From contig JAHBUL010000009.1 of the NCBI GenBank assembly GCA_019638085.1, positions 124,001 through 188,000 of the forward strand: a DNA stretch of 64,000 nucleotides. The letters are read 5' to 3'. Shown here piece by piece: positions 49,384 to 63,970 of the stretch. The translations under genes were made by a program, and so were the position numbers. Position 1 is the first letter of the stretch, and each line of letters opens with the position of its first letter. The notes beneath the pieces are model-generated. The model was not told the origin of the DNA. It worked only from the letters and a program-made list of their open reading frames with translations, and did not search any database. The DNA is from Flavobacteriales bacterium (GTDB lineage: Bacteria > Bacteroidota > Bacteroidia > Flavobacteriales_F > PHOS-HE28).

Positions 49384-50433
49384 ATGACCAAAGCAGCAAA
49401 GATCAAGTCCTTCGACCCCAATACCCCTGGTAATGCCAACGCGGGTATCTACGGTCTGCCCTTCACGGCGGAGGAAAGCGATATCGTTCTCGTACCTGCT
49501 CCTTGGGAAGTGACCACGAGCTATGGTGGTGGTACCTCACAAGGGCCGGCTGCTATCCTGGAAGCTTCGTTCCAAGTAGACCTGTTCCATCCGGAATTCG
49601 GCGACCTCTGGAAGCGCGGCATTGCCATGGACGAGATACCTGATGCCCTGCTGCAGCAGAGTGATGCCTTGAAGAAGGAAGCAGCGCACGTGATCGATGT
49701 GCTGGTGAATGGAGGAACGAAAACGAAGCAGGACCGGGCAGCCAAGGCCCTTACGCTGGTGAACGAGGAAAGTGCCGTGATGGAGGAATGGGTGGAACAA
49801 CGCACCGGCTACTGGCTGGATCAAGAGAAGCTCGTAGGCCTCGTAGGTGGTGACCACAGCACGCCATTGGGCTTCTACCGTGCCTTGGCACAGCGCTATG
49901 AAGGGTTCGGCATCCTGCATTTGGATGCGCACCTCGATCTTCGGAATGCCTACGAAGGTTTTTCCGGAAGCCATGCGAGCATCATGCACAATGCGTTGGC
50001 CATTCCTGAGGTGGAGACCATCGTCTCCGTTGGCATACGCGATTTCTGCGAGGAAGAAGCCCGCGTGTTCGCGGAACAGGATCTTCGTGTGCGCATACAC
50101 CGCAGTGCCGAGCTCCGCCGCGAGCAATATGAAGGCATGACCTGGCAGAAGCAGTGCGATCGGATCATTGATCAACTGCCGGAATTCGTCCACATCAGTT
50201 TCGACATTGATGCCTTGGATCCCTCCCTCTGCCCGAACACGGGTACACCCGTTCCGGGAGGTTTCGCTTTCGAGGAGGCCACCTACCTCCTCTCCGGCGT
50301 GGCGGCCAGTGGCCGCAAGATCATCGGCTTCGACCTTGTGGAAGTGACTCCGGGGCCGACCGGGGATTGGGATGCCAACGTGGGCGCCCGACTGCTTTGG
50401 CACCTCTGCGGCGTAATCGCCAAGACGAATTAG
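49384..50433 (+). CDS. Agmatinase/arginase-family ureohydrolase
   Basis: This is a 349-residue protein. Binuclear manganese motifs are present: GGDHST (residues about 155-160), LHLDAHLDLRN (near 178) and SFDIDALDPSLCP (near 275). Further, GGGTSQGPAAILEAS and GFDLVEVTPGPTGDWDANVG are family features. It hydrolyses a guanidino compound to urea plus amine; agmatine is most likely in Bacteroidota, but arginine or formimidoylglutamate are possible. The gene stands alone between two terminators. ATG 49384 is clear. Confidence 0.88.
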   Translation: MTKAAKIKSFDPNTPGNANAGIYGLPFTAEESDIVLVPAPWEVTTSYGGGTSQGPAAILEASFQVDLFHPEFGDLWKRGIAMDEIPDALLQQSDALKKEAAHVIDVLVNGGTKTKQDRAAKALTLVNEESAVMEEWVEQRTGYWLDQEKLVGLVGGDHSTPLGFYRALAQRYEGFGILHLDAHLDLRNAYEGFSGSHASIMHNALAIPEVETIVSVGIRDFCEEEARVFAEQDLRVRIHRSAELRREQYEGMTWQKQCDRIIDQLPEFVHISFDIDALDPSLCPNTGTPVPGGFAFEEATYLLSGVAASGRKIIGFDLVEVTPGPTGDWDANVGARLLWHLCGVIAKTN

Positions 50434-50481
50434 ACCGGTTCGCTTTCAGCGTGGATACACCTTACGGTGCATAGCGGCTTG

Positions 50482-50514
50482 AAAAGGGTTGGTCCCTTCA
50501 ACCCTTTTTTTTTT
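50482..50514 (+). terminator. Rho-independent terminator of the agmatinase-family gene
   Basis: AAAAGGGTTG (50482-50491) pairs with CAACCCTTTT (50499-50508), and the T run extends to ten residues at 50505-50514. On the minus strand its A-rich side also ends 34 bases beyond the universal stress protein stop. Confidence 0.9.
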
Positions 50515-50547
50515 CGAGTTCACCAAAGCAGCAAGCTCGGATCGACC

Positions 50548-51372
50548 TCAGCTGCGATCCGTATCGTAGGCCTGCAATACAAGCAGTGGCAGGTTGGTGT
50601 GCAACGCCAAACGCTTGGCGGTGCTGGTGCGGAAGAGGCTTTCGAAGAAACCGGTATGCCTGTGCAACACCGCGATCATATCCGCGCCTTCCTTCTCCGC
50701 GAGAAAGTCCAGAACACCGGCGACATCCTTTCCTTCCCCTGCAATGAAGCGATGGGGAACGGCCTGGAGCAATTCCCCGTACATGCCAACGATCTCTGGA
50801 TCGGGCAGATCATCCGGGTTTTGGAGCACATGCGCCAGCACGATCTCCGACATGGAGCGCAAAGCGATGTGGAGCAACATGCGCGTACCGGCCACCTCCA
50901 CTCCTTTCTGGTCGTCCGCGTACAGGATCCTCGTCACCGGGCGGAGTTCAGCCCTATTGGGCACCACCAACACGGGGATCTTGCTATGCTTCACCGTGGC
51001 TCCCGCATTGCTCCCCATGATCCCAGCCCCGGAATGGCCTTCGGTGCCCATCACGATCAGGTCCGCCTTCTTCTCCTTTCCCAGTTCATTGAGCATGTTC
51101 GTCAGAGGCCCATAGAGCACTTCGGTATTCACCGTTGCGCCCTCGAAGAGCTCGGAAGCACGTATTCGTCCTTCCCAGTCCTTCATGCCATCCACTGCAG
51201 CCTTGTATAGACTCTCGGCCATGCCGGCCCATGAGGTAACGGTCGGATCGGCATCGAGGTAGGTATGTACCAACGTGTAGGTAACCTCCTGCGTACCGAG
51301 CAAACGCGCACCATACATGGCGGCGTGCAAGGAATTATCACTGAAATCGGTGGGGAGCAGAATGTGGACCAT
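50548..51372 (-). CDS. Universal stress protein, two tandem UspA domains
   Basis: This is a 274-residue protein with two Usp domains: residues 1 to about 150 begin VHILLPTDFSDNSLHAAMYG and end with an ATP-binding-type motif VMGTEGHSGAGIMGSNAGAT; residues about 155-274 are a more divergent second copy (RILYADDQKGVEVAGTRMLL). Usp proteins build up under starvation or low oxygen. The start ATG 51372 is set by homology. A TAAGTTTG -7 box lies 18 bases upstream, and a TGATnnnnATCA box sits about 60 bases above the predicted transcription start. Confidence 0.92.
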   Translation of the reverse strand: MVHILLPTDFSDNSLHAAMYGARLLGTQEVTYTLVHTYLDADPTVTSWAGMAESLYKAAVDGMKDWEGRIRASELFEGATVNTEVLYGPLTNMLNELGKEKKADLIVMGTEGHSGAGIMGSNAGATVKHSKIPVLVVPNRAELRPVTRILYADDQKGVEVAGTRMLLHIALRSMSEIVLAHVLQNPDDLPDPEIVGMYGELLQAVPHRFIAGEGKDVAGVLDFLAEKEGADMIAVLHRHTGFFESLFRTSTAKRLALHTNLPLLVLQAYDTDRS

Positions 51373-51390
51373 GTTGTGCTGGATATGAGG

Positions 51391-51398
51391 CAAACTTA
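51391..51398 (-). promoter_or_regulatory. -7 element TAAGTTTG of the universal stress protein
   Basis: It is an exact match to TAnnTTTG, ending 18 bases before the ATG at 51372. The transcription start is expected near 51384. Confidence 0.65.
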
Positions 51399-51440
51399 GG
51401 GTTGCGGCTCCATCCCGCCAGCTCTTCCAAGACGGCAACC

Positions 51441-51452
51441 TGATGAAGATCA
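51441..51452. promoter_or_regulatory. FNR/CRP-type box TGATGAAGATCA
   Basis: It has the palindromic core TGATnnnnATCA. The centre is 55.5 bases from the end of the usp -7 motif and about 62 bases above its predicted transcription start, a class I activator position. It is also about 41 bases before the cysteine dioxygenase ATG. Confidence 0.55.
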
Positions 51453-51487
51453 TTCACCGGACCAAGGAGTAGCTCTATCCTTGACCG

Positions 51488-52033
51488 ATGGCACTGCTGC
51501 TTGACAACCACCAAATGGCCGGAACGATAGAAACCCTCGAGGAATTGGTACGCGTCCTCGACGTCGAATCGCGTCCGGCCGGCTATATGGATGCCTTGTT
51601 GCGCTTGTCGATCACACCTGAAATGCTGGCTCCCTTCTGTCAGTGGAACACACGCCACTACACTCGGCAATGCATCCACCGCACGCGCGAGCACGAGCTG
51701 ATACTGATCTGCTACGAAGAAGGCCAACGCACGAGCATACACGACTACGACAGCCAGATGGCCTGGATCAAGCCGTTGATGGGCACTGTGCAGGAGGAAC
51801 GCTTCAAGATCGCCACCGGTGGAAGCTTGAAGCGCCATGGGCAGCGCGTATTGGAAACCGGGCGGTTGGCGTACATGGCCACCAAGAGCTGCATCCATCG
51901 GCATTCCAACGCCGGTCCCGGGAGGGCTGTCACCCTCAACCTGTATGCACGGCCCATCCGAAGTTGGCGCGTGTATGACGAGCGCACCGGCCTCGCATCC
52001 CTTTTAGGCACTACGGAGGCTGGAGGTGAATAA
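51488..52033 (+). CDS. Cysteine dioxygenase family protein
   Basis: This is a 181-residue cupin. The CDO type I segment NTRHYTRQCIHRTREHEL is followed by SIHDYDSQMAWIKPLMGTVQ, in which the HxH-type iron ligands of CDO and the conserved substrate-binding residues lie, though the first His of the usual HxH motif should be checked. CDO oxidises cysteine to cysteine sulfinate. It lies 14 bases upstream of the PAS kinase gene on the same strand, so it may share its transcript. Confidence 0.8.
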   Translation: MALLLDNHQMAGTIETLEELVRVLDVESRPAGYMDALLRLSITPEMLAPFCQWNTRHYTRQCIHRTREHELILICYEEGQRTSIHDYDSQMAWIKPLMGTVQEERFKIATGGSLKRHGQRVLETGRLAYMATKSCIHRHSNAGPGRAVTLNLYARPIRSWRVYDERTGLASLLGTTEAGGE

Positions 52034-52047
52034 CTTCGCCGGCACGA

Positions 52048-53256
52048 ATGCCACAAGGGGATACCAATGTGAACCCGGTCCATTTGGATCGAGTGCGCGA
52101 AATGCTTTTCGCCAGCGCTGCGGAAGGGTTGGTCCTCGTTGACCGCTCGGGCGCCATACGCATGAACAATCCGCGGTTGCTGGAATTGTTCGGTTACGCG
52201 GAAGGCGAACTCCTGGGCCGCTCCATTGAATTGCTGCTTCCTGAAAGCTTCCGCCATGCGCATGCCTCGCAGCGCGAAGGCTACAATGCGCGGCCGGCAA
52301 AACGGCATATGGGACGCGGCCGTGAACTGAACGGCCTGCGCAAGGATGGAACCATCTTTCCCGTGGAAGTGGGCCTGAACCACTTCACCGTGGACGATGA
52401 ACTTTACGTGATGGCCCTGGTAACGGACATTACGGAACGGAAAAGTGCCGAGGAAGCCCTGAAGCGCAATACGGCCGAGTTGGAGAAACGGGTGGAAGAG
52501 CGGACCGCGGAACTGGCCAAGGGTGCGCACGCCGTGGAGATCGCTTATGAACGAGAGAAGGAACTGCATGCGTTGAAGTCGCGCTTTGTTTCCATGGCCT
52601 CACATGAGTTCCGCACGCCGTTGAGCACCATCATGGGATCTGCCGACCTGATCGCGCGCTATACCGAAGGCCCGGGCAATGAAAAGGTACACAAGCATGT
52701 GCAGCGGATCCGCACCAAAGTGCGCGACCTTACCGCCATACTCAACGATTTTCTCTCTTTCGAACGCATCGGCCAAGGCGATATATCCACAGAACCGGAA
52801 GAGATCGATATCATCCATTTATGCATCGGGCTGATCGAGGAGCTTCGTGGCATGGCCAAGGCTGGCCAAGCACTGAAGTACGAACATACCAGCGATACGC
52901 GTACCGTGGTGTTGGACCGGAACATGTTGGTGAACACCATCACGAACCTGGTGACCAACGCCATCAAGTATTCACCCGAGGGCAGCCCGGTGACACTGCG
53001 GACAGCCATGGACGACGGCTGCCTGCGCATTGTAGTGATCGATAAGGGCATAGGCATCCCTGTCACGGATCAGCCCCAACTGTTCGACCCCTTCTTCCGT
53101 GCACAGAACGTGCTCACCATCCAAGGCACCGGCCTTGGGCTACATTTAGTGAAACGCTATCTGGACCTGATGGGTGGCGAGATCAACTACACCAGTACTC
53201 CGGGACAAGGCAGCACCTTCAATGTGCGCATTCCCGGAAAACACTACCGAACATGA
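52048..53256 (+). CDS. PAS-domain sensor histidine kinase
   Basis: This is a 402-residue soluble kinase without membrane helices. A PAS domain (residues about 14-130: AEGLVLVDRSGAIRMNNPRL, DITERK) is followed by a coiled coil, HisKA (SMASHEFRTPLSTIMG, phospho-His186) and HATPase (NLVTNAIKYSPEGSP, DKGIGIP, GTGLGLHLVKRYLDL). The PAS resembles those that hold haem or flavin in oxygen-sensing FixL-like kinases, but no ligand can be assigned. Its stop overlaps the response regulator start by four bases, so they are a pair. Confidence 0.92.
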   Translation: MPQGDTNVNPVHLDRVREMLFASAAEGLVLVDRSGAIRMNNPRLLELFGYAEGELLGRSIELLLPESFRHAHASQREGYNARPAKRHMGRGRELNGLRKDGTIFPVEVGLNHFTVDDELYVMALVTDITERKSAEEALKRNTAELEKRVEERTAELAKGAHAVEIAYEREKELHALKSRFVSMASHEFRTPLSTIMGSADLIARYTEGPGNEKVHKHVQRIRTKVRDLTAILNDFLSFERIGQGDISTEPEEIDIIHLCIGLIEELRGMAKAGQALKYEHTSDTRTVVLDRNMLVNTITNLVTNAIKYSPEGSPVTLRTAMDDGCLRIVVIDKGIGIPVTDQPQLFDPFFRAQNVLTIQGTGLGLHLVKRYLDLMGGEINYTSTPGQGSTFNVRIPGKHYRT

Positions 53257-54314
53257 AGACCCTACTACTGATCGAGGATGATGCCGATGTGCGGGACAAC
53301 ACCGCAGAGATCTTGGAACTCGCACATTACCGTGTGCTGAAAGCGGAGAACGGAAAGAAGGGCGTGGACCTCGCCCGGAAGGAATTGCCGGACCTGGTGC
53401 TTTGCGACATCATGATGCCTGAACTGGACGGCTATGGTGTACTGCACATGCTGGGTCGCTCGCCGGAGACCGCCGAGATCCCCTTCATTTTCCTCACGGC
53501 GAAGGCCGAACGCAGCGATGTGCGGCGCGGGATGGATCTAGGTGCCGACGATTACCTGACCAAGCCCTTTGAGGAAAGCGAATTGCTGAACGCCATTGAA
53601 GGTCGGCTAAAGCGTAGCGATCTTTTCCGCAAGGGCTTCGACCGTACGCTCAGTGGGCTCAACGACTTCATGGAGCAAGCGCGCGGTGTGGCCGCTTTGG
53701 AGGACCTGAGCAAGGACCGCAAGAACCGGAACATCGAGCGCAAGGGGATCCTTTTCCACGAAGGGGACGAAATGCGGTATGTGCCGTTCCTGGTCTCGGG
53801 TAAGGTGCGCACGTTCAAGGTGAACAACGACGGCAAGGAATTCGTGACCGGCCTGCACATCCCCGGAGATTTCATCGGCTACCTCGGCACCCTGGAAGGC
53901 GGCCATGCCATGGAGACCGCCGAGGCCATGGAGGACAGCGAAGTGGCCATGGTACCCCGGGACGACCTGATGCGCTTGCTCTACCGCGATCGCGATGTCT
54001 CCATGCGTTTCATCCGTATGCTGACCCATGAAATGGGCGAGAAACAGGAACGATTGCTGCAATTGGCCTATGCCAGCGTGCGGCAACGGGTGGCCCAAGC
54101 GCTCGTGTATCTCCATGATCGTTTCAGCGCAGAGCAATCAGAAGACCTTGGCGTTCGCATCAGTCGCGACGATCTGGCGGCCATTGTGGGTACGGCCACC
54201 GAATCCTTGATACGCTGCCTGACCGACCTGAAGGATGAAGGACTGATCACCACACAAGGTCGCGACATCCGCATCGCCGATCGGCGGAGATTGGAAAGGC
54301 TGGGGAACGCGTGA
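53253..54314 (+). CDS. Response regulator fused to a CRP/FNR-type DNA-binding module
   Basis: This is a 353-residue protein. Residues 1 to about 120 are a receiver (LLLIEDDADVRDN, LCDIMMPE with Asp52, LTKPF). Residues about 150-260 are a cyclic-nucleotide-binding-type jelly roll (ILFHEGDEMRYVPFLVSGKV, GDFIGYLG). Residues about 275-350 form the HTH_Crp winged helix (RDDLAAIVGTATESLIRCLT, LITTQGRDIRI). In the recognition helix the Glu and Arg that contact TGA half-sites in FNR are kept, while FNR's Ser is Ile. This combined architecture lets the kinase control an FNR-like output. It overlaps the kinase gene by four bases. Confidence 0.9.
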   Translation: MKTLLLIEDDADVRDNTAEILELAHYRVLKAENGKKGVDLARKELPDLVLCDIMMPELDGYGVLHMLGRSPETAEIPFIFLTAKAERSDVRRGMDLGADDYLTKPFEESELLNAIEGRLKRSDLFRKGFDRTLSGLNDFMEQARGVAALEDLSKDRKNRNIERKGILFHEGDEMRYVPFLVSGKVRTFKVNNDGKEFVTGLHIPGDFIGYLGTLEGGHAMETAEAMEDSEVAMVPRDDLMRLLYRDRDVSMRFIRMLTHEMGEKQERLLQLAYASVRQRVAQALVYLHDRFSAEQSEDLGVRISRDDLAAIVGTATESLIRCLTDLKDEGLITTQGRDIRIADRRRLERLGNA

Positions 54315-54452: not shown

Positions 54453-56111
54453 ATGCATACACGCTATTTCACCTTACTCGGAGCACTTTCTTCGTTCGTA
54501 GTTCTCGCACAGCAACCCTTGGCCATTCCACCCTTGTTGGAACAGGACACGTTCATGCTGAATGTCGGCCCGCACACCCACCAATTCTATCCCGGTGTGA
54601 CCACTCCAACCTTGGGTGTGAACGGTGAGTTCCTTGGCCCCACGCTGCTCTTCAACCATGGCGATACGGCCCGTCTCCGGGTGCAGAACGACATGTCGGA
54701 GATCACCACCATGCACTGGCACGGCATGCACGTGAGCGGCGATCAGGATGGCGGGCCGCAACGGATCATCGAACCCGGTGAATACTGGGATGCGAAGTAC
54801 AAGGTGGTCAATCCGGCAGGCACATACTGGTACCATCCACATCCGCACATGATGACCGCCTCACAGGTCACGCGTGGAGTTGCCGGTATGATCATCGTGC
54901 GGGATGATTTAGAGAGCGCGCTTGACCTACCGCGCACCTACGGCGTGGATGATATTCCCGTGGTCATTCAGGATCGGCGTTTCCTGGCCAACGGCAACAT
55001 GGTGGTAACGGCATACGGTGATTCGCTCCTGGTGAACGGTACGCCCCGTCCCTTTGTGGACCTGCCCGCACAGGTGGTCCGCTTGCGTTTGCTCAATGGC
55101 TCCAACTCGCGGGTGTACCGGATCGGGCTCCAAGGTGACAGCACCTTCCACATGATCGCTGGTGACGGCGGCATGTTGAATGCCACCGTCCCCTTACAGC
55201 GATTGAGCCTGAGCAACGGTGAACGGGCTGAGATCCTGCTCGACCTCAGCGGTATGGAAGGCGACAGTCTGTTGTTGATGAGCTTTGGAAGTGAGCTTTC
55301 TGAAACCGTGCCCGGCAGCGCCAACATCCTGTGGGAGACCAGTGCACTGAACGGGATCGACTTCCCCGTGCTTCGCATCCGGGTACAAGCTCCCACGTCG
55401 GAGCCGGTGACCACCCTACCCACCAGCCTCGTCAGTGTAACGCCGATCCCGGAAACCCAAGCCACGCGCACCCGGGTGAAGACGATCACGGGGAACGGCA
55501 TGGTGAGCATGGGCATGTTCCTGATCAACGGCCAAGAGTTCAACATGGATGTGGTGAACGATACGGTAGCCCTTGGTAGCACGGAGATCTGGACCTTCGT
55601 GAACAACTCGAACATGGCCCACCCCATGCATATCCATGGGGTTTCGTTCTACGTGATCGACCGCAATGGCGTGCCCGTTGCGCCTGAGGAGGCCGGCGCC
55701 AAGGATGTAGTGCTGGTGGAAAGGAGCGAGACCGTGCGCACGATCATGCGCTTCGACCACCCCACGAATGGATACCCTTACATGTACCATTGCCACAACC
55801 TGATGCATGAGGACCACATGATGATGCTCCAGTTCAACGTGACCGACATGACCACCTCGATCCCGGAAGCAGGGATATCCACGAAGGTTCATGTGTTCCC
55901 GAACCCAACAACGGCATCGGTCCGCTATGAAGCCCCGTTCGCCGTGGAGTCCGTCCGAGTTATGGACCTTATGGGCCGTGTGCTTCAGCGCATTCCGGGA
56001 ACCGGAAGTACCGCTGGCATCATTGACATGGGCTCGTTGCCAGCCGGCCTGTACACACTTACACTGGAAGGGAATGATGCATCCGCACGTGTGCGGGTAG
56101 TTCGGGAGTAA
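54453..56111 (+). CDS. Multicopper oxidase with T9SS sorting domain
   Basis: This is a 552-residue protein with signal peptide (ending VVLAQ, residue 20). Copper motifs in order: MHWHGMH (residues 87-93), YWYHPHPHMM (126-134), HPMHIHG (390-396) and YHCHNLMHEDHMMM (445-458), covering types 1, 2 and 3 copper. The length and arrangement suit a CueO/CotA-type oxidase acting on Cu(I), Mn(II) or phenols. From about residue 475 a T9SS C-terminal domain follows (VHVFPNPTTASVRYEA, LYTLTLEGNDASARVRVVRE). It is secreted or held on the cell surface. It is the first gene after the two-component pair but separated by 138 bases. Confidence 0.95.
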   Translation: MHTRYFTLLGALSSFVVLAQQPLAIPPLLEQDTFMLNVGPHTHQFYPGVTTPTLGVNGEFLGPTLLFNHGDTARLRVQNDMSEITTMHWHGMHVSGDQDGGPQRIIEPGEYWDAKYKVVNPAGTYWYHPHPHMMTASQVTRGVAGMIIVRDDLESALDLPRTYGVDDIPVVIQDRRFLANGNMVVTAYGDSLLVNGTPRPFVDLPAQVVRLRLLNGSNSRVYRIGLQGDSTFHMIAGDGGMLNATVPLQRLSLSNGERAEILLDLSGMEGDSLLLMSFGSELSETVPGSANILWETSALNGIDFPVLRIRVQAPTSEPVTTLPTSLVSVTPIPETQATRTRVKTITGNGMVSMGMFLINGQEFNMDVVNDTVALGSTEIWTFVNNSNMAHPMHIHGVSFYVIDRNGVPVAPEEAGAKDVVLVERSETVRTIMRFDHPTNGYPYMYHCHNLMHEDHMMMLQFNVTDMTTSIPEAGISTKVHVFPNPTTASVRYEAPFAVESVRVMDLMGRVLQRIPGTGSTAGIIDMGSLPAGLYTLTLEGNDASARVRVVRE

Positions 56112-56118
56112 CGCGAGT

Positions 56119-56580
56119 TCAATTATTCAACGCTCCTTGATCGATCCAGTCCTGGATGGTCTGGAGCTCTTCCAGCGTCAATTGTGTGTATCCCGGCGGT
56201 GGCATCATGGTACCGTAGATCCCGTCCCCGGACACTTTATGCCAGAGGACCGAAGCATCCAAGTTGCCTGGCACCACACGCTTCTCCGGGGCATAATTGG
56301 TGCTGGTCACGTTCACCAAGTTAACGTATGCCTCAGATGGGATCAGGTCCATACCGCCATAAGGAGGATGGCAAAGCCAGCACTTCGCGTGGAATATGGC
56401 GGCCACCTCCGTGAAGTAGGCCGTGTCGATCGTTACGATGGTGGTGTCAGTGGTGGTATCGATGGGCGCCACGGGCGGCACCGGCCTGGGCATCGGCACC
56501 GGTCCTTCATCCTTGGCACAAGATGCTATTACCAGTATCACACCGATGGTGATGAACCATTTCATTCGACGGGATCTCAT
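56119..56580 (-). CDS. Cytochrome c-type lipoprotein, last gene of the lysyl oxidase operon
   Basis: This is a 153-residue lipoprotein (signal KWFITIGVILVIASC, lipid Cys21). After a proline/threonine-rich linker a haem motif CWLCH (residues 67-71) and a possible axial Met in GTMMPPPGY follow, as in the small PSCyt1-like or c-type haem domains often found near surface-exposed proteins. Its ATG overlaps the DUF5777 gene's stop by four bases; an alternative start is ATG 56565. It probably passes electrons at the outer membrane. Confidence 0.82.
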   Translation of the reverse strand: MRSRRMKWFITIGVILVIASCAKDEGPVPMPRPVPPVAPIDTTTDTTIVTIDTAYFTEVAAIFHAKCWLCHPPYGGMDLIPSEAYVNLVNVTSTNYAPEKRVVPGNLDASVLWHKVSGDGIYGTMMPPPGYTQLTLEELQTIQDWIDQGALNN

Positions 56581-57497
56581 GGGCGCGGCATTCGGGGCTT
56601 GACAAAGAGCGTACGCGAGATATTGAAGCCGAGGAGGATATTGCCCTCATCGTATCGCACGGCAGGCGAAGTGTACAGGCGCTGCTCCACGATCTCCCCG
56701 CTGGATGCAATGATGATCTGGAATACGTGCCCCAGCGTGGCAAGCTCATATGCAATGGCCAGCGGGTTCAGGTGGTCAACCTGTTGCTGCCCTTGAACAA
56801 TGGGGGCATACTCAAAGAGGATGGAACCTTTGGGGGTGACCTTGACCCGCCCACTTAGTGGCACGGCCACCGTGAGGTTCTCTCCACCAGCCGGCGCCAG
56901 GTTCCGGTACTCGAAGGCGGCCGCTGCCTGTAGCGACAACACATCATTGAAGCGGCGGGCCACAATGAGTTGCGTATTGTAGTACATGCGGTGCTTGAAG
57001 GAATACTCGAACGGGGTGGTCAGATCCGCGAAGTAGTAGTTCTCCCGGACAGGAGGAAAGGCATCGGTCATCACCGCCGCATCAAAAAAGCCGGTGACCG
57101 AGATCGGCATGGAATTGTCCACCGTCTGCCGGAGCAGTCTGGCCTTCACCGCCAAGTCCACCAGCTTACCGTTCTTGCTGCGGCCAGCCTCCAGATGGAT
57201 CCGATCGGTCAAGGCATACTGGAAACCGAACCGGATATTGGCCGGCAGATCCAAGCCGAAGAACTGCTTGTAGGCCTGCTCATCCATACCGAACGCACCG
57301 AAGCGATGCTGGATCATAAAGCCGAAGGAGCGCTTCCTGGGCACCACCTCAACGGATTGGGCATTGATCACCTGCGACCACGAGAACGTGTTCGTCACCA
57401 GCTCACGTGGCATGTTCTCTTGTGCTAGTAGCGCGCTGCCTCCAAATGCCAGAAGCGCTGCAATGGCCGATCGTCCGAGTAAACTTCGATCGCTCAT
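56577..57497 (-). CDS. DUF5777-family outer-membrane beta-barrel protein
   Basis: This is a 306-residue protein with a signal peptide (IAALLAFGGSALLAQ) and regularly alternating beta-strands (SFGFMIQHRFGAFGMDEQAY, NIRFGFQYALTDRIHLEAGR, ILLGFNISRTLFVK at the C-terminus). It fits the DUF5777 barrel family that occurs beside cytochromes and YceI proteins in Bacteroidota. It may be a porin-like pore or scaffold that lets periplasmic electron carriers reach the surface. It overlaps both neighbours by four bases. Confidence 0.78.
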   Translation of the reverse strand: MSDRSLLGRSAIAALLAFGGSALLAQENMPRELVTNTFSWSQVINAQSVEVVPRKRSFGFMIQHRFGAFGMDEQAYKQFFGLDLPANIRFGFQYALTDRIHLEAGRSKNGKLVDLAVKARLLRQTVDNSMPISVTGFFDAAVMTDAFPPVRENYYFADLTTPFEYSFKHRMYYNTQLIVARRFNDVLSLQAAAAFEYRNLAPAGGENLTVAVPLSGRVKVTPKGSILFEYAPIVQGQQQVDHLNPLAIAYELATLGHVFQIIIASSGEIVEQRLYTSPAVRYDEGNILLGFNISRTLFVKPRMPRP

Positions 57498-57898
57498 TCG
57501 TGGGCAAGGGTTCGTATATAATGCACTAAGGCCCAGCGCTGCTCACGTGAGATCACCTGTTCGTAGGAAGCCATATCGCCTCTTCCGTGCGTGATCTTCC
57601 AGTACAGTGCACCATTGGATTGGGCCTGCACGAAGGGTGAACCCAGGTCGGCCGGGAGAACCGAAAGTGAAGTCGCGTTCGGACCATCACCCTTGCCTTG
57701 GGGACCATGGCAGGTCCAGCAGAGCGATGAGAATAGCCGGGCTCCCTTCGCTGCGGCCTTGGCATCATTCGCCAATGGATCCACCAGGGCATCCGCTTCC
57801 TTCGGTGCCTTCCACGGATCACTTGTGCCCGGGGCGATCCTGAAGGCAGAGACCAGCAGTACAACCAGGAGCACCAATGGTATGTATCGATAATTCAT
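57494..57898 (-). CDS. Periplasmic mono-haem cytochrome c
   Basis: This is a 134-residue cytochrome with an N-terminal signal or anchor (YIPLVLLVVLLVSAFRIAPG) and one class I haem motif CWTCHG (residues 60-65), with a possible axial Met in GRGDMASYEQVI near residue 110. The fold is close to that of alternative electron carriers of the SorB/CycA type. It lies between the polyferredoxin/TPR protein (3-base gap) and the DUF5777 gene (4-base overlap). Confidence 0.88.
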   Translation of the reverse strand: MNYRYIPLVLLVVLLVSAFRIAPGTSDPWKAPKEADALVDPLANDAKAAAKGARLFSSLCWTCHGPQGKGDGPNATSLSVLPADLGSPFVQAQSNGALYWKITHGRGDMASYEQVISREQRWALVHYIRTLAHE

Positions 57899-57901
57899 GG
57901 T

Positions 57902-59893
57902 TCACGGTTCATTAACTGCATTCCCCGGGCCTCCACCCTCCTGCGCCAGCACGGCCAATGCCTGCCGCGCGCGTGCATTTCCGGGATCCAATGCAAGCGC
58001 CTGCTGCAAGCTCGATCGAGCACCAATGGGGTCTCCGGTACGGGCCAACACCACGCCCAAAGTGTATTGAGCATTGCTGTCAGTGGGACGCAACTGCACC
58101 AGTCTGTCATACTGATAGAGCGCTTCCTTCCAGCGCCCTTGCCGGAGGTGAAGGGCACCGAGGTTATTCCGTACCAGTGCCTCATCTGCACCGTTGCGCA
58201 TGGCCTGCTCCAGCAGATCGATGGCCGCATCGTCATGTCCTTCCGCACTTTCCAGCGCGGACAGGGCCAGCTTCGGGCGTGGGTCGGACGGTGATCCTTG
58301 AAGGGACCGTTCGAACATCCCCCGTGCTTCCTCGATCCTGCCCGCACCAGCCAGGTCTATCCCCACTTGCAGCGCAGCATTCCCCAGCAGTTCATCGTCC
58401 CTCCCATGAGGGCGGGGTGTTCCCACCACGATGGCCGTCCTCCAAAGATCCAAGGCCCTCCTTTGGTCCCCTGCTGCCATGGCCAGTTCCGCCAACCGGC
58501 AGCGGGCTTCCACATGCTCGGGATCCTGCTCCACAATGCCTTCAAGCATGGCAATACCCTCGTCCATCCGGCCCGAAAGCAGATAGAGGTTCGCCAGTTC
58601 CTTGCGGCGATCGAGAGGGGCCACTATTCCCCAGGCCAATGCCTGCTCGTAATGTGCGATGCCCGCCTTCAGGTCCTCCTGATCGATCTTCGCCCCGCTC
58701 GCAGCTACAGCGGCCAGCTGCTTCATGGCGGACTTTCCACGCCAGGTGTGGATTTGCACAACAGCACTGTGTGCCAGCACCAGGACCAACAATATGGTGG
58801 ACCCCGCGTAGACCAGCCCAGCGGGAGCCATGCGTCCTTCTTTCCGCAGCACCACCCCTCGCACCTGCATGGTCTTCCGTTTCAAAAGCCGGTAACCCAC
58901 CAACACGAGGTAGGCGGAGCACACCGCGAGGCCAACAGCCAGGAGGAAGGCGACCGCGTCGTACAGCCCCCGGAAAATGAACATCGCGATCAGAAAGGTC
59001 ACCGCCAGCAGGATATCCTCACCCCAGGTGAAACTGTAACGGCCCTCATACGTGCCCAGTGGATGGCCCTTTCGGAACATCGGCGGCTTCCGGAATCCAT
59101 AGGTGATCGCATCCTCGGGACAGGCAGCGATGCAATCGAGATCCTTCAGGCAGCGCGGATTGGTCACCATGCCATGCTCGGCCAGTTCCTTATGGACGAG
59201 GATATCCGACGTGCAGGCCTTGGTACACAAGCCACACGAGGTGCAATCCTTGGCCACGTTGAGGGCAATGCGCCCCGGTGCGAACTGGTCCGCGATGCTG
59301 AAGATCGCGCCGTAGGGACAGGCTTGATAGCAGAAGCCGCGGCTGCCCAGTAGGTAGACGATGAGGAAGCCACAGATAAAGAAGGTGAGCACCGCAATGC
59401 CCGGAGGCGGCAGGTTCCGCCAGAGGTTGTCGGTACTGAAGGAGGACCACCCCCCTGCTGCACTGGCCTCCACCACATGGAGCGGCGTGGGATCCAATCC
59501 GTGGAACAGGGCCAGGATCTGTGGCCAGATGAAGAGGTAGCCCATCACCACGAAGGGGATCCATACCAAGGTGCGCGATCGGATCGAGGTCCGCGGGATA
59601 CGCAGCTTCTCCATCAGCCAACCGCAGGAATCCTGCAGGGCCAGTATATGGCATCCCCAAGAACAGAAGAAGCGACCGAAGAACAAGGTGGCCACGATCA
59701 CCAAGGCCATGAAGATGAAGCCGGCCGTGACGATGCCTTGGTGGATCGTGTACAGCACCTCGTTGAACTCCAGTGGCGCCAAGGTGGTCCCGCGCAACTT
59801 CCAGTGGACGAAATGTGCGATGAAAAGCACGTGCACGCCCACGAGCGTCGCAGTGCGCCACTTGCCGTATGAGCGGGTACGTTCAGTCGCCAT
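57902..59893 (-). CDS. NapH/CcoG-like polyferredoxin fused to TPR repeats
   Basis: This is a 663-residue membrane protein. The N-terminal part has about four helices with FCSWGCHILALQD (residues 76-88) and GFCYQACPYGAIF (187-198), typical of NapH/CcoG/NosR proteins. Two [4Fe-4S] clusters follow from CTSCGLCTKACTS (217-229) and CLKDLDCIAACPED (248-261). After two or three more helices, residues about 400-650 hold six or so TPR repeats (for example DPRPKLALSALESAEGHDDA, ALYQYDRLVQLRPTDSNAQY). The TPRs would lie on the side opposite the cytosol only if the helix count is odd, which needs topology prediction. It likely moves electrons from quinol or cytoplasmic ferredoxin to the periplasmic cytochrome. 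Confidence 0.88.
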   Translation of the reverse strand: MATERTRSYGKWRTATLVGVHVLFIAHFVHWKLRGTTLAPLEFNEVLYTIHQGIVTAGFIFMALVIVATLFFGRFFCSWGCHILALQDSCGWLMEKLRIPRTSIRSRTLVWIPFVVMGYLFIWPQILALFHGLDPTPLHVVEASAAGGWSSFSTDNLWRNLPPPGIAVLTFFICGFLIVYLLGSRGFCYQACPYGAIFSIADQFAPGRIALNVAKDCTSCGLCTKACTSDILVHKELAEHGMVTNPRCLKDLDCIAACPEDAITYGFRKPPMFRKGHPLGTYEGRYSFTWGEDILLAVTFLIAMFIFRGLYDAVAFLLAVGLAVCSAYLVLVGYRLLKRKTMQVRGVVLRKEGRMAPAGLVYAGSTILLVLVLAHSAVVQIHTWRGKSAMKQLAAVAASGAKIDQEDLKAGIAHYEQALAWGIVAPLDRRKELANLYLLSGRMDEGIAMLEGIVEQDPEHVEARCRLAELAMAAGDQRRALDLWRTAIVVGTPRPHGRDDELLGNAALQVGIDLAGAGRIEEARGMFERSLQGSPSDPRPKLALSALESAEGHDDAAIDLLEQAMRNGADEALVRNNLGALHLRQGRWKEALYQYDRLVQLRPTDSNAQYTLGVVLARTGDPIGARSSLQQALALDPGNARARQALAVLAQEGGGPGNAVNEP

Positions 59894-59910: not shown

Positions 59911-61962
59911 CTATTGGACCACCAGCCGCCGCTGGAACAAGCGCCCTTCGATCCGCAGGGATAGCAGGTAGATGCCTTTGGGCAACACGCTGGTGTCAAG
60001 CGGCTGCAGCACTTGGCCACTTGCTGCGCGGAAACGTTCCGAGCGCACATTCCTTCCCAGCGCATCCGTAAGGTCCAAAAGCACCTCGGCAGGTGCCAGC
60101 AAGTGCAGGGAGATCTCGGAGAAACCGTTGCTCGGGTTCGGATAGACCTCGAAACCACGCAACGAAAGCGGCTCGTTCACACCCGTACACACCTCCACGT
60201 CCACCTGTACCGTGGTAGGTGTACTGGCGCATTGCCCACCGCCCACTTCCACTTCCCAATCGAAGAAATAGGGGTAGTAGGACGTACCCACGCTTGATGC
60301 GGTGAGGGTGGCCACATCACTGATGACATAGGGATAGGAAACCCCGCTTGTGCTGCGCCAGAGGTCCACTTTACCCGCTACGGTCAGTGTGTATCCCGCT
60401 CCCGGAAGGATATCGAAATCCAGGTCCATCCGCGATTCGCCAGCTGGCACCATGGCCGAACGGGTGTGGCGTACCACACCGATCACATCCACCACCTCGA
60501 TGGTACGCATGCCCGCACTGCCTGCATATAGCTTCACCGACTTCAGGCGGAAGGATCTGTTCGCATCAAAGTTCATGGCAATACCACCGGGATGGTAGCT
60601 GCCGCCACCACTCTTGTCCGGCCTGCCGCCATATATCAACGCACCTGGGGCGGCACTGATGCTGCTCACCTGATAGGTGGTGGAGGCATACAGCGGAGGT
60701 GTTTCGAAGCTGGCTCCGGTCCCCAGTGTATTCCCCTGCGCATCGGCCCAGATCGCATCCGGATCATCGGCGTTCAGCACGGCGGTCCCACCTTCACAGA
60801 TCGTTACGCTCTCCGCAACGGGTGGCGTGGGTTGTGGCAGTTCAGCAACAGTGAACGCGGGAGATGTGGCGGTACCGCAATAGGTGGATACCATCACTGT
60901 ATAAGTGCCGGGACCCGCCATGATGGAATTGGTAGTGGCCCCGTTGGACCACAGGTAGGACACGCCCGCAGATGCTTGGAGCTTCACCTGCCCGCCCGGA
61001 CATACGAACGCCTGCTCGTTACAATGGATGGCAGCAATGGGTGAGCCGGATGAGGATTGCTGGGTGAGCGTGATCGGCACCGCGGTGAAGTTGTTGTCTT
61101 CATTGGCTTCCTTCAACACATCGAGCGGGTCCACCTCGTACACGATCCAGTAATCGCCGTTGCATGTATTGGCGGGGATGTTGATCCACATGCCATCGAG
61201 GTACTCGCTGTAGATATCCGTATAACCGGAAGAGATCCCTTGCCGTGCCATGCTGCAGTTATAGGGTCCGCCGAGGCCGTAGTTCGGAAAGGAGGATATC
61301 GGCAGGGTGTTCCCCGCGTTGTACACGGTGTTGTCATCCTTGCAATGGTTCGTCACGGATGCGCTACCGCAACTGTTGTAGTCCATCAGGCAAAAGCCAA
61401 GCTTGTAGCCTTGGCCCACGATCGGCCATTCCCGCGGATCGCTCACACCTGCCTCGGGCATTCGTAGGCTATAAATACCCCATTGATCGTAGTGGGTGTG
61501 CCCGTGGGTGGGGTGATAGGTCATGCCGTGCGGCATCACGCGCTCATAGGATGACATTGCGGATCCATTCTTGCGGAAGATCCGTTGGGTGGTGAGTTGT
61601 TTGGCCGTGCCGCCATTGGGGCAAGCGAACTGCTGTTGCGCACTCGGGTCGTATACCACGAACGTATCCGTTCCACACGTGAAGCGCCGATAGCCATTGA
61701 GGTCCACACCCCGCACCTCCAAAGGTCCCAGGCCGATGTTCGGCGTGGAACCGCTCACATAGAGGCGACCGGCCGTTTCATTCGGGCCATTCAGGTAATT
61801 CAACAGGGCGTACCATGAGATCGTCACGTCCGGAAGCAGGTCGCATTCCTGGCTACCATCCGGACACACGCAGGAGGTCGCATTGGTAGTGGTGCATTGG
61901 GCCTTGGCGGTGCTTGAGCAGACCGCGGCCAGTAGCAGCAAGGGGAAGTAGAGGTAGCGCAT
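59911..61962 (-). CDS. Lysyl oxidase homologue with T9SS sorting domain
   Basis: This is a 683-residue secreted protein. After the signal peptide (LYFPLLLLAAVCSSTAKA) the lysyl oxidase domain spans residues about 60-290. Copper talon YHPTHGHTHYDQWGIY gives His150, His153, His155 and His157 in the LOX spacing H-xx-H-x-H-x-H. GYKLGFCLMDYNSC places Lys187 where human LOX has Lys320, and QGISSGYTDIYSEYLDG places Tyr251 at human Tyr355, so the lysine tyrosylquinone pair is kept. An Ig/PKD-like segment (residues about 310-390) and another beta domain precede the T9SS tail (FEVYPNPSNGFSEIS, LLSLRIEGRLFQRRLVV). ATG 61962 is set by the signal peptide. It is the first gene of a five-gene operon. Confidence 0.9.
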   Translation of the reverse strand: MRYLYFPLLLLAAVCSSTAKAQCTTTNATSCVCPDGSQECDLLPDVTISWYALLNYLNGPNETAGRLYVSGSTPNIGLGPLEVRGVDLNGYRRFTCGTDTFVVYDPSAQQQFACPNGGTAKQLTTQRIFRKNGSAMSSYERVMPHGMTYHPTHGHTHYDQWGIYSLRMPEAGVSDPREWPIVGQGYKLGFCLMDYNSCGSASVTNHCKDDNTVYNAGNTLPISSFPNYGLGGPYNCSMARQGISSGYTDIYSEYLDGMWINIPANTCNGDYWIVYEVDPLDVLKEANEDNNFTAVPITLTQQSSSGSPIAAIHCNEQAFVCPGGQVKLQASAGVSYLWSNGATTNSIMAGPGTYTVMVSTYCGTATSPAFTVAELPQPTPPVAESVTICEGGTAVLNADDPDAIWADAQGNTLGTGASFETPPLYASTTYQVSSISAAPGALIYGGRPDKSGGGSYHPGGIAMNFDANRSFRLKSVKLYAGSAGMRTIEVVDVIGVVRHTRSAMVPAGESRMDLDFDILPGAGYTLTVAGKVDLWRSTSGVSYPYVISDVATLTASSVGTSYYPYFFDWEVEVGGGQCASTPTTVQVDVEVCTGVNEPLSLRGFEVYPNPSNGFSEISLHLLAPAEVLLDLTDALGRNVRSERFRAASGQVLQPLDTSVLPKGIYLLSLRIEGRLFQRRLVVQ

Positions 61963-62024: not shown

Positions 62025-62129
62025 TTTTTGTTTCAACAGCCCATACCGCATCTTACAGCCGATGGCCTTATTTAGAGGCATTATAGCGAATTTCAGCCAG
62101 AGCGAAAACCCGAAGACCCAGTCATTATG

Positions 62130-62163: not shown

Positions 62164-62171
62164 TTTCTTTG
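62164..62171 (+). promoter_or_regulatory. Candidate -7 element TTTCTTTG of the MbnP-like gene
   Basis: It keeps the TTTG half of the motif but has TT in place of TA. It ends 24 bases before the ATG at 62196. Confidence 0.45.
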
Positions 62172-62195
62172 CAACACATCCAACCTACCGCCAGC

Positions 62196-62930
62196 ATGCT
62201 CCGTCGCCTGTTTCTTCCCGCCGCCCTCCTTGCCTTGATCGTGTCCGGTTGCAAAAAGGACGAGGCTGTTCCACCTGAGACCGCCCCACCCGACCCGGCT
62301 GTTCTGCAGGTGGCTCATACGGTGGACGGTCAAAGCTTGATCTACGACACCTTGCTGTATGTGAATGAGGCGGGGTCGCTCTTCAGCGTCACCCGGGTGG
62401 AGTACTACCTAAGCGAACTGGTGCTGATCGGTACGGGTGGTACTGCGAATGACACACTGCACGGTCCCTGGTACGTGAATGCCGCCGGCATAACGGACTT
62501 CGACCTGAGCGGTCTGCGGGCCGGCACGTATAGCGGGGCTACCATGCTGCTTGGCCTGCCACCTGCGCTGAACACCACCGGGGCTTTACCAAATACGCTG
62601 TCGAACATTAACATGGCCTGGCCCGACCCGATGGGGGGCGGCTACCACTTCATCAAGTTCGAAGGTCATTTCATCTCCAACGGCATCTCAGTGGGTTATG
62701 CGATGCACATCGGCAAGGATGCCTTCCTGCCCCGTTGTGACATGCAACAAGGCTTCAGCATTACCGGTACGGGTGGAAAGCTCCTGCTCACCTTCAACCT
62801 GAACGAAGTGTTCCGCACGCCGCACACCTATGACCTGGCCACTGGCAATTACTCCATGGGCAACATGGGACTAATGACCCAACTGCAGGAGAACTGTGCC
62901 AATGCCTTCACCATCGCCTACCAACCATGA
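62196..62930 (+). CDS. MbnP-family lipoprotein (copper-binding-like)
   Basis: This is a 244-residue lipoprotein (signal LLALIVSGC, Cys19 or so). The MbnP-like domain shows LLYVNEAGSLFSVTRVEYYL, SELVLI, NMAWPDPMGGGYHFIKFEGH and SNGISVGYAMHIG. In studied MbnP proteins a conserved Trp is oxidised to kynurenine by the partner MbnH, enabling copper binding; the Trp of the MAWPDP motif is a candidate here. Its stop overlaps the partner's start by four bases. It diverges from the lysyl oxidase operon across a 233-bp regulatory region. Confidence 0.85.
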   Translation: MLRRLFLPAALLALIVSGCKKDEAVPPETAPPDPAVLQVAHTVDGQSLIYDTLLYVNEAGSLFSVTRVEYYLSELVLIGTGGTANDTLHGPWYVNAAGITDFDLSGLRAGTYSGATMLLGLPPALNTTGALPNTLSNINMAWPDPMGGGYHFIKFEGHFISNGISVGYAMHIGKDAFLPRCDMQQGFSITGTGGKLLLTFNLNEVFRTPHTYDLATGNYSMGNMGLMTQLQENCANAFTIAYQP

Positions 62931-63970
62931 GGAAGATCCTTCTGCCGGGATTGCTCATTGCCCTAACATTCCTCGCCCTCTCATGCAAGCGGGATACGGC
63001 TGATCCGCCGCCCCCGGTCAGCCATTCTTCCGGCACGCCGGTGGACCTCGCAGGCCCGTGGTACTTCCCGCAAATGACCGTACCTGCAAACAATCCCACT
63101 ACGGAAGAAGGTATCCAATTGGGGCGGAGGCTTTATTACGACCCCATCCTTTCCACCGGCGGTCCCATGGAAGGCCGATCGTGCAGCAGCTGCCACTCCC
63201 AGGAACTTGGCTTCACCGTTCCGAACACGCCCGCCAACTTCCATAACGTGCTGCCCCATGTGAACCTCGGCTGGAGCAGCAATTTCCTTTGGAATGGGAA
63301 GGTGCAGGGTTCCCTTGAGGACATCATGCGCTTCGAGGTGGAGGAATTCTTCGCCGTGGATGTGGGCGTACTGCAGCAGCATCCCGAGTATCCGCAACTG
63401 TTCCAAACGGCCTTGGGCAGCTCCACTATCACACCGGATGCAGTGGGCAAGGCCCTCGCACAATGGTTCCGCAGCATGATCTCCTCCAACAGCCGCTTCG
63501 ACCAATATGTGCGGTACGAAATATCGCTCACCCCCTCCGAGATCAACGGCATGATGCTGTACCTCACGGAGACCGGCGATTGCTTCCACTGCCACGGCAT
63601 GCCGTTGCTCACGGACAATGGCTTCCACAACATCGGGCTGGATTCCGTCTTCACCGGAAATGACCAAGGGCGCTTCCTGGTAACAGGCAATGCAGCGGAC
63701 CTTGGCGCCTTCAAAGCACCAACCCTGCGGAACATTGCACAGACCGGCCCTTACATGCACGACGGGCGGTTCACTACCTTGGAGGAAGTGATCGAGCATT
63801 ACAACTCCGGTGTGAAGCACTCCGCCAGCTTGGACCCCATAATGACCAAGCCCGGCAAGGAGACCGGCCTGAACCTTTCGCCTCAACAGAAGGCCGATCT
63901 GGTGGCCTTCCTGCACACCTTCACCGACCAGACCTTCCTGACGGATACCGCCCTCGCCAGTCCGTTCTGA
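62927..63970 (+). CDS. MbnH-like di-haem cytochrome c peroxidase family lipoprotein
   Basis: This is a 347-residue lipoprotein (signal LLIALTFLALSC). Two haem motifs, CSSCH (residues 86-90) and CFHCH (219-223), and stretches GRRLYYDPILSTGG, FLWNGKVQGSLEDIM, DLGAFKAPTLRNIAQTGPYM and HDGRFTTLEEVIEHYN are those of the MauG/bCcP/MbnH superfamily. Given its translational coupling to MbnP, MbnH activity (oxidising a protein Trp with peroxide) is more likely than general peroxide removal. Confidence 0.9.
   Translation: MRKILLPGLLIALTFLALSCKRDTADPPPPVSHSSGTPVDLAGPWYFPQMTVPANNPTTEEGIQLGRRLYYDPILSTGGPMEGRSCSSCHSQELGFTVPNTPANFHNVLPHVNLGWSSNFLWNGKVQGSLEDIMRFEVEEFFAVDVGVLQQHPEYPQLFQTALGSSTITPDAVGKALAQWFRSMISSNSRFDQYVRYEISLTPSEINGMMLYLTETGDCFHCHGMPLLTDNGFHNIGLDSVFTGNDQGRFLVTGNAADLGAFKAPTLRNIAQTGPYMHDGRFTTLEEVIEHYNSGVKHSASLDPIMTKPGKETGLNLSPQQKADLVAFLHTFTDQTFLTDTALASPF

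Follow-up and report, generated by a model that had tools for sequence, protein, structure and literature searches.

Can a protein of the lysyl oxidase (LOX) family act as a copper amine oxidase on the surface of a bacterium, and what connects it to the electron-transfer genes that lie next to it? This question is raised by a gene in the window analyzed here (the whole stretch of 64,000 nucleotides from a Flavobacteriales bacterium, contig JAHBUL010000009.1, positions 124,001 to 188,000), which the initial annotation had read as an active copper amine oxidase, delivered to the cell surface by the type IX secretion system (T9SS) and tied to an electron-transfer operon. Judged from its sequence, the product is a LOX-family domain on a T9SS cargo protein, in which both the copper talon and the residue pair that forms lysine tyrosylquinone (LTQ) are complete (Table 1). 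We consider, with a probability of about 0.5, that this copy is a working Cu/LTQ amine oxidase set within a surface redox unit. The main interest of the locus would reside in an obligate LOX-NapH pairing with a dispensable copper site, more than in the combination of a LOX with a T9SS tail.

Table 1. Coordinates in the window of the LOX-like gene, its domains and key residues, and the genes around it.
Feature	Position	Strand	Remarks
LOX-like T9SS cargo gene	59911..61962	minus	683 aa
LOX-like catalytic domain	61057..61899	minus	residues 22-302; alignment A1, AlphaFold2, VIA match 5ze3_A
Copper talon HPTHGHTH	61492..61515	minus	His150, 153, 155, 157
Lys187 (human LOX Lys320)	61402..61404	minus	invariant in 93/93 domains
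Tyr251 (human LOX Tyr355)	61210..61212	minus	invariant in 93/93 domains
Ig_7 domain (CHU_C associated)	60652..60831	minus	residues 378-437, Pfam
T9SS type A sorting tail	59914..60147	minus	residues 606-683; Pfam and NCBIfam
NapH/MauN-like membrane ferredoxin with C-terminal TPR repeats	57902..59893	minus	663 aa; 17 bp past LOX stop
c-type cytochrome CYT2	57494..57898	minus	one CxxCH
DUF5777 outer-membrane beta-barrel	56577..57497	minus	219 bits
c-type cytochrome lipoprotein CYT1	56119..56580	minus	one CxxCH
MbnP-family lipoprotein	62169..62930	plus	divergent neighbour, window genus only; mature start C-K-K-D-E, surface-export-like
MbnH/MauG-like di-heme enzyme	62927..63970	plus	divergent neighbour, window genus only

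The annotation had given the talon histidines the H-xx-H-x-H-x-H spacing of human LOX and had placed Lys187 and Tyr251 at the positions of the human LTQ residues. The numbering proved exact, and multiple and profile-profile alignments agreed on these assignments: the human LOX segments WHSCHQHYH, GHKASFC and SPGCYDTY were aligned with YHPTHGHTH, GYKLGFC and SSGYTDIY of the window protein, with His289/292/294/296 as the human counterparts of the talon. A Gemmatirosa row in the wrong frame was disregarded in one multiple alignment. Residue 150 of the window protein is the first of HPTHGHTH, Lys187 is located inside GYKLGFC and Tyr251 closes GISSGYTDIY. Set against a profile of 15 canonical LOX sequences, a profile of 25 homologues aligned with a probability of 99.2 and an E-value of 1.6e-19. 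The Pfam Lysyl_oxidase family (PF01186) scored 35.4 bits (cut-off 20.4), over profile positions 128-197 only, and 31.9 bits in the whole-genome search. A claim that PF01186 misses the Bacteroidia homologues was dropped: the family scores these homologues in hmmscan, and the counts that had been compared (4/395 genomes of the phylum with PF01186 and 109/395 genomes of the class with our profile A1) come from different genome samples. The AlphaFold2 model of the LOX-like domain (pLDDT 87.9) had human LOXL2 (5ZE3) as its best match in VIA, with a Z of 15.1 and 2.7 Å over 161 residues; the next match reached a Z of 7.7. Foldseek also placed 5ze3 among its top matches, with the best E-value (1.4e-6), yet with a low TM-score (0.36), and the structural match is taken from the VIA alignment and not from the Foldseek TM-score. 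A search of the PDB with the single window sequence found no LOX, but the search with a profile did. On these sequence comparisons, the similarity of the window protein to LOX is one of homology and not of chance, and the domain is predicted to adopt the LOX fold.

The export route named in the annotation was borne out as well. The C-terminus was recognized by both Pfam (Por_Secre_tail, 32.5 bits) and NCBIfam (T9SS type A tail, 37 bits; cut-off 23), and the genome encodes the T9SS translocon protein SprA (2550 bits). At the N-terminus, we identified by eye a hydrophobic, signal-peptide-like leader that ends in AKA followed by QC; the open frame extends upstream of position 61962 to a first ATG at 62025, which would give a protein of 704 aa.

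Bacterial LOX homologues were already known, as the annotation had stated: they were reported in 2015, with Bacteroidetes as one of five bacterial clades (Grau-Bove et al.; PMC4448552), and the archaeal HTU-LOX of Haloterrigena turkmenica is an active, BAPN-sensitive amine oxidase that is stimulated by copper (PMC6452851). The window protein is therefore a member of a known family. It shares with human LOX and LOXL2 (PF01186; PDB 5ZE3) the fold, the H-xx-H-x-H-x-H talon, the LTQ Lys and Tyr and both cysteines of the FCL.D..C motif (C191/C198 in the window protein), but the identity is only ~23%, three cysteines of LOX (Cys291, Cys351 and Cys361) have no conserved counterpart, and the Lys motif is followed by a long insertion. 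The human proteins have a propeptide or SRCR domains, whereas here we find a T9SS tail, an Ig_7 domain and a redox operon. HTU-LOX is likewise a prokaryotic LOX, but it is archaeal, with neither a T9SS nor a redox operon reported (PMC6452851). With the proteins of the 2015 survey, the window protein has in common a secreted LOX domain that bears the Cu and LTQ residues. In that survey, the first talon His was absent from bacterial LOX and architectures were mostly simple (PMC4448552); in contrast, the first His is common here (79/82 of the Bacteroidia homologues with a talon), the protein is a multidomain T9SS cargo and one subfamily has an obligate NapH partner. In our alignment, this His is missing from Streptomyces LOX and from the other LOX class of the genus. 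It is not essential in LOXL2, where its mutation lowers LTQ below 50% (PMC9694262). In the open-access papers searched, the terms "lysyl oxidase" and "T9SS" co-occurred only in an unrelated review; surface-displayed LOX chemistry would join the cargo of this secretion system.

Other genomes of the same genus carry up to four LOX genes of two further classes (L013-L042, L059-L065): one of ~900-1200 aa with CHxHxH and without the first His, and one of ~870 aa. The window genome has neither. In G028, G041, G021 and G012, the two further classes are found within ~10 kb of each other.

The LOX-like gene is the first of a minus-strand unit of five genes, followed by NapH/TPR, a cytochrome c (CYT2), the DUF5777 barrel and a cytochrome c lipoprotein (CYT1), with gaps of 17 and 3 bp and then two overlaps of 4 bp. 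The mature N-terminus of CYT1 is C-A-K-D-E-G, which fits C-X-K-(D/E)2-X, the experimentally defined surface-export signal of Bacteroidetes lipoproteins (PMC5080379); the C-X-K-(D/E) part is kept across homologous loci and the exact signal within the genus. Based on the component types and these export signals, the five-gene unit may span the cell envelope. At the inner membrane, NapH/TPR would exchange electrons with the quinone pool, CYT2 would ferry electrons across the periplasm, and the DUF5777 barrel together with the surface-type lipoprotein CYT1 would bring them to the outer face, where the LOX-like protein, anchored by T9SS, would constitute the outermost, partner-facing component. Not every linked locus holds the full conduit: L009, L151, L157 and L165 lack the DUF5777 barrel and at least part of the cytochrome set. 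The last three, which belong to one genus, have a unit cut down to the LOX-like and NapH/TPR genes in a tail-to-tail arrangement, with both the cytochromes and DUF5777 missing.

The association of the LOX-like gene with NapH/TPR, which the annotation had noted as a tie to an electron-transfer operon, extends far beyond the window and is conserved across genera. Throughout Bacteroidia, a LOX-like gene lies beside every NapH/TPR gene with a readable neighbourhood (24/24). Within the genus, NapH/TPR is found in 11 of the 45 genomes, which are exactly the genomes with the LOX class of the window, and the two genes are adjacent in all 11. The rest of our 390-genome sample of the class contains NapH/TPR in 14 genomes, 13 of which have an adjacent LOX-like gene; in the fourteenth (L166), only 146 bp of contig remain upstream of the NapH start, on the side where LOX would be expected. 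Linked loci usually also hold two cytochromes c and a beta-barrel. The distance matrices of LOX and NapH/TPR are strongly related (Mantel r 0.85; 22 pairs; r reached by 0/5000 permutations), but part of this r comes from shared genome ancestry and it therefore shows co-inheritance and not contact. The LOX-like gene and its NapH/TPR neighbour are co-inherited. The best-studied prokaryotic LOX has been described as cryptic, and this constant pairing offers a handle on the native role of bacterial LOX.

We surveyed the talon in 93 distinct LOX-like domains from Bacteroidia, L165 included. The conservation of catalytic residues expected from the annotation held for Lys187 and Tyr251, both invariant, but not entirely for the copper site: HxHxH is kept in 82/93 domains and missing in 11/93. 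All 11 talonless domains are NapH-linked, and the 23 linked domains are thus divided into 12 with the talon and 11 without it. The 12 linked sequences with the talon, that of the window among them, keep all four His as well as Lys and Tyr. The talon is also present in 45/45 unlinked domains with visible flanks and in 25 domains at contig edges. What stands in its place differs by lineage: L047/L048 have QNNTR, L009 a deletion, L007/L116/L117/L123 a GGGSLY-type sequence and L151/L157/L165 still other sequences. Assembly error is unlikely, as QNNTR is common to two genomes of the genus and the other lineages differ. Two trees built without the talon columns require a minimum of four talon changes, and a single ancestral loss, with one talonless clade, was rejected (p-AU 9.5e-8; AU test). 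All four losses map to linked branches, which represent 4.7 of the 21.6 assigned branch-length units (~22%). For the association of talon loss with linkage, a post hoc calculation on only four events gives P ~0.002 (~0.02 when all ambiguous branches are counted as linked). An independent-pairs test had too few pairs for significance, and the association therefore relies on the four losses out of four on linked branches.

The talonless proteins do not appear to be decaying. Their genes have intact frames and dN/dS values of 0.07-0.18, like those of taloned proteins, which indicates purifying selection and led us to reject pseudogene decay. They also keep the operon, and the T9SS tail is present in linked homologues, talonless ones included. 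Across the 37 positions conserved in at least 97% of the taloned proteins, systematic changes in the talonless group are limited to His153, His155, His157 and, within a single clade, Trp161; two other near-invariant positions change once each. Lys187, Tyr251 and Asp249 are unchanged in 11/11 talonless proteins. Conservation of Lys and Tyr alone is therefore no proof of LTQ chemistry in this subfamily. A change in any of the three Cu ligands abolishes LTQ biogenesis in LOXL2 (PMC9694262); by analogy with this need for each ligand, conventional LOX catalysis is not expected of the talonless proteins. Their Lys/Tyr pair may have been kept for a structural role, after a recent loss of activity, or for a copper-independent use. 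At one talonless locus, the CYT1 homologue (L123:2965-3381) presents CX5CH (CALPGNCH) in place of CXXCH, and its heme attachment is uncertain. L151 carries two talonless LOX-like genes in tandem.

These results leave the prediction of an active surface copper amine oxidase partly supported: the window protein has all the residues and the T9SS export signal, but 11 linked homologues, two of them in its own genus, have no talon. We nevertheless favor the reading that the window protein has most likely remained a Cu/LTQ amine oxidase, which would act on surface or environmental amines. The absence of HxHxH from 11/23 linked domains argues against this reading, and the probable sister of the window protein is among them (L047/L048, of the window genus; support 84/92, not decisive). 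It is also the case that LOX chemistry uses O2 and needs no redox partner, which counts against it. The NapH/TPR partnership appears independent of copper-site chemistry, since sister proteins repeatedly dropped the site and the partnership persisted.

The alternative that survives best gives the NapH-linked LOX domain a mainly non-enzymatic role at the surface, as a module for docking or adhesion or as an electron-transfer scaffold; the talon of the window protein would then be a leftover or serve an optional activity. This would fit the at least four independent losses, all of them on the small linked portion of the tree, and the selection that maintains talonless genes together with their operon and T9SS tail. 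However, 12 distinct linked sequences preserve the entire set of four His, Lys and Tyr, and all the talonless proteins retain Lys187 and Tyr251, which a pure scaffold does not obviously require. We regard this alternative as unlikely, if a serious one. It seems improbable that the window protein is an ordinary O2-dependent LOX amine oxidase whose gene merely shares a promoter with an unrelated respiratory operon. Its canonical residues are all present, and Bacteroidia commonly have LOX homologues that lie outside the operon and that carry the talon wherever their flanks are visible; but each readable NapH/TPR gene has a LOX-like neighbour with which it co-diverges, and talon loss is concentrated in operon-linked proteins.

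A further possibility, which we consider a long shot, is that a LOX-derived, T9SS-displayed protein serves as the outer partner of the NapH/TPR-cytochrome unit and no longer needs copper. Its retained Lys/Tyr pair would work as a copper-independent quinone or in another Lys-Tyr function, electrons would be exchanged with the cytochromes instead of O2, and taloned members such as that of the window would be intermediates. Orthologues with an intact or a lost talon, in the same operon and with Lys/Tyr unchanged, constitute a natural series for probing copper-independent functions of the LOX fold.

The surroundings of the LOX-like gene recall mau clusters, with a NapH/MauN-family ferredoxin, c-type cytochromes and a MauG-like di-heme enzyme near a quinone-cofactor candidate, but this likeness is one of component class only. 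No methylamine dehydrogenase subunit was found among the scanned neighbouring proteins. In every member of the genus with visible flanks, and not elsewhere, the MbnP/MbnH pair lies divergent to the LOX operon, and we therefore rejected it as a part of the core unit. We judge it very unlikely that the LOX-like protein is an amine dehydrogenase-like redox protein, handing substrate electrons to the cytochromes through an LTQ made via copper in taloned members and via another route (e.g., the MauG-like enzyme) in talonless ones: the two cytochromes c, the NapH/MauN-type protein, the divergent MbnH of the genus and, in the talonless proteins, the retention of Lys187, Tyr251 and Asp249 with systematic loss of only the Cu ligands and Trp161 would suit it, but the LOXL2 mutants make LTQ dependent on every ligand (PMC9694262), MbnH does not adjoin the talonless genes of other genera, and structural reasons could explain the retention of Lys and Tyr.

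Facing the end of the LOX operon, the window also encodes a CueO-like multicopper oxidase (54453-56111), which carries a T9SS tail of its own and is likewise seen in several relatives (L050, L005, L006 and L055). Just past the operon (49384-54314), we identified an arginase-family gene and genes for a universal stress protein, a PAS histidine kinase and a response regulator that carries a fused CRP-type DNA-binding domain.
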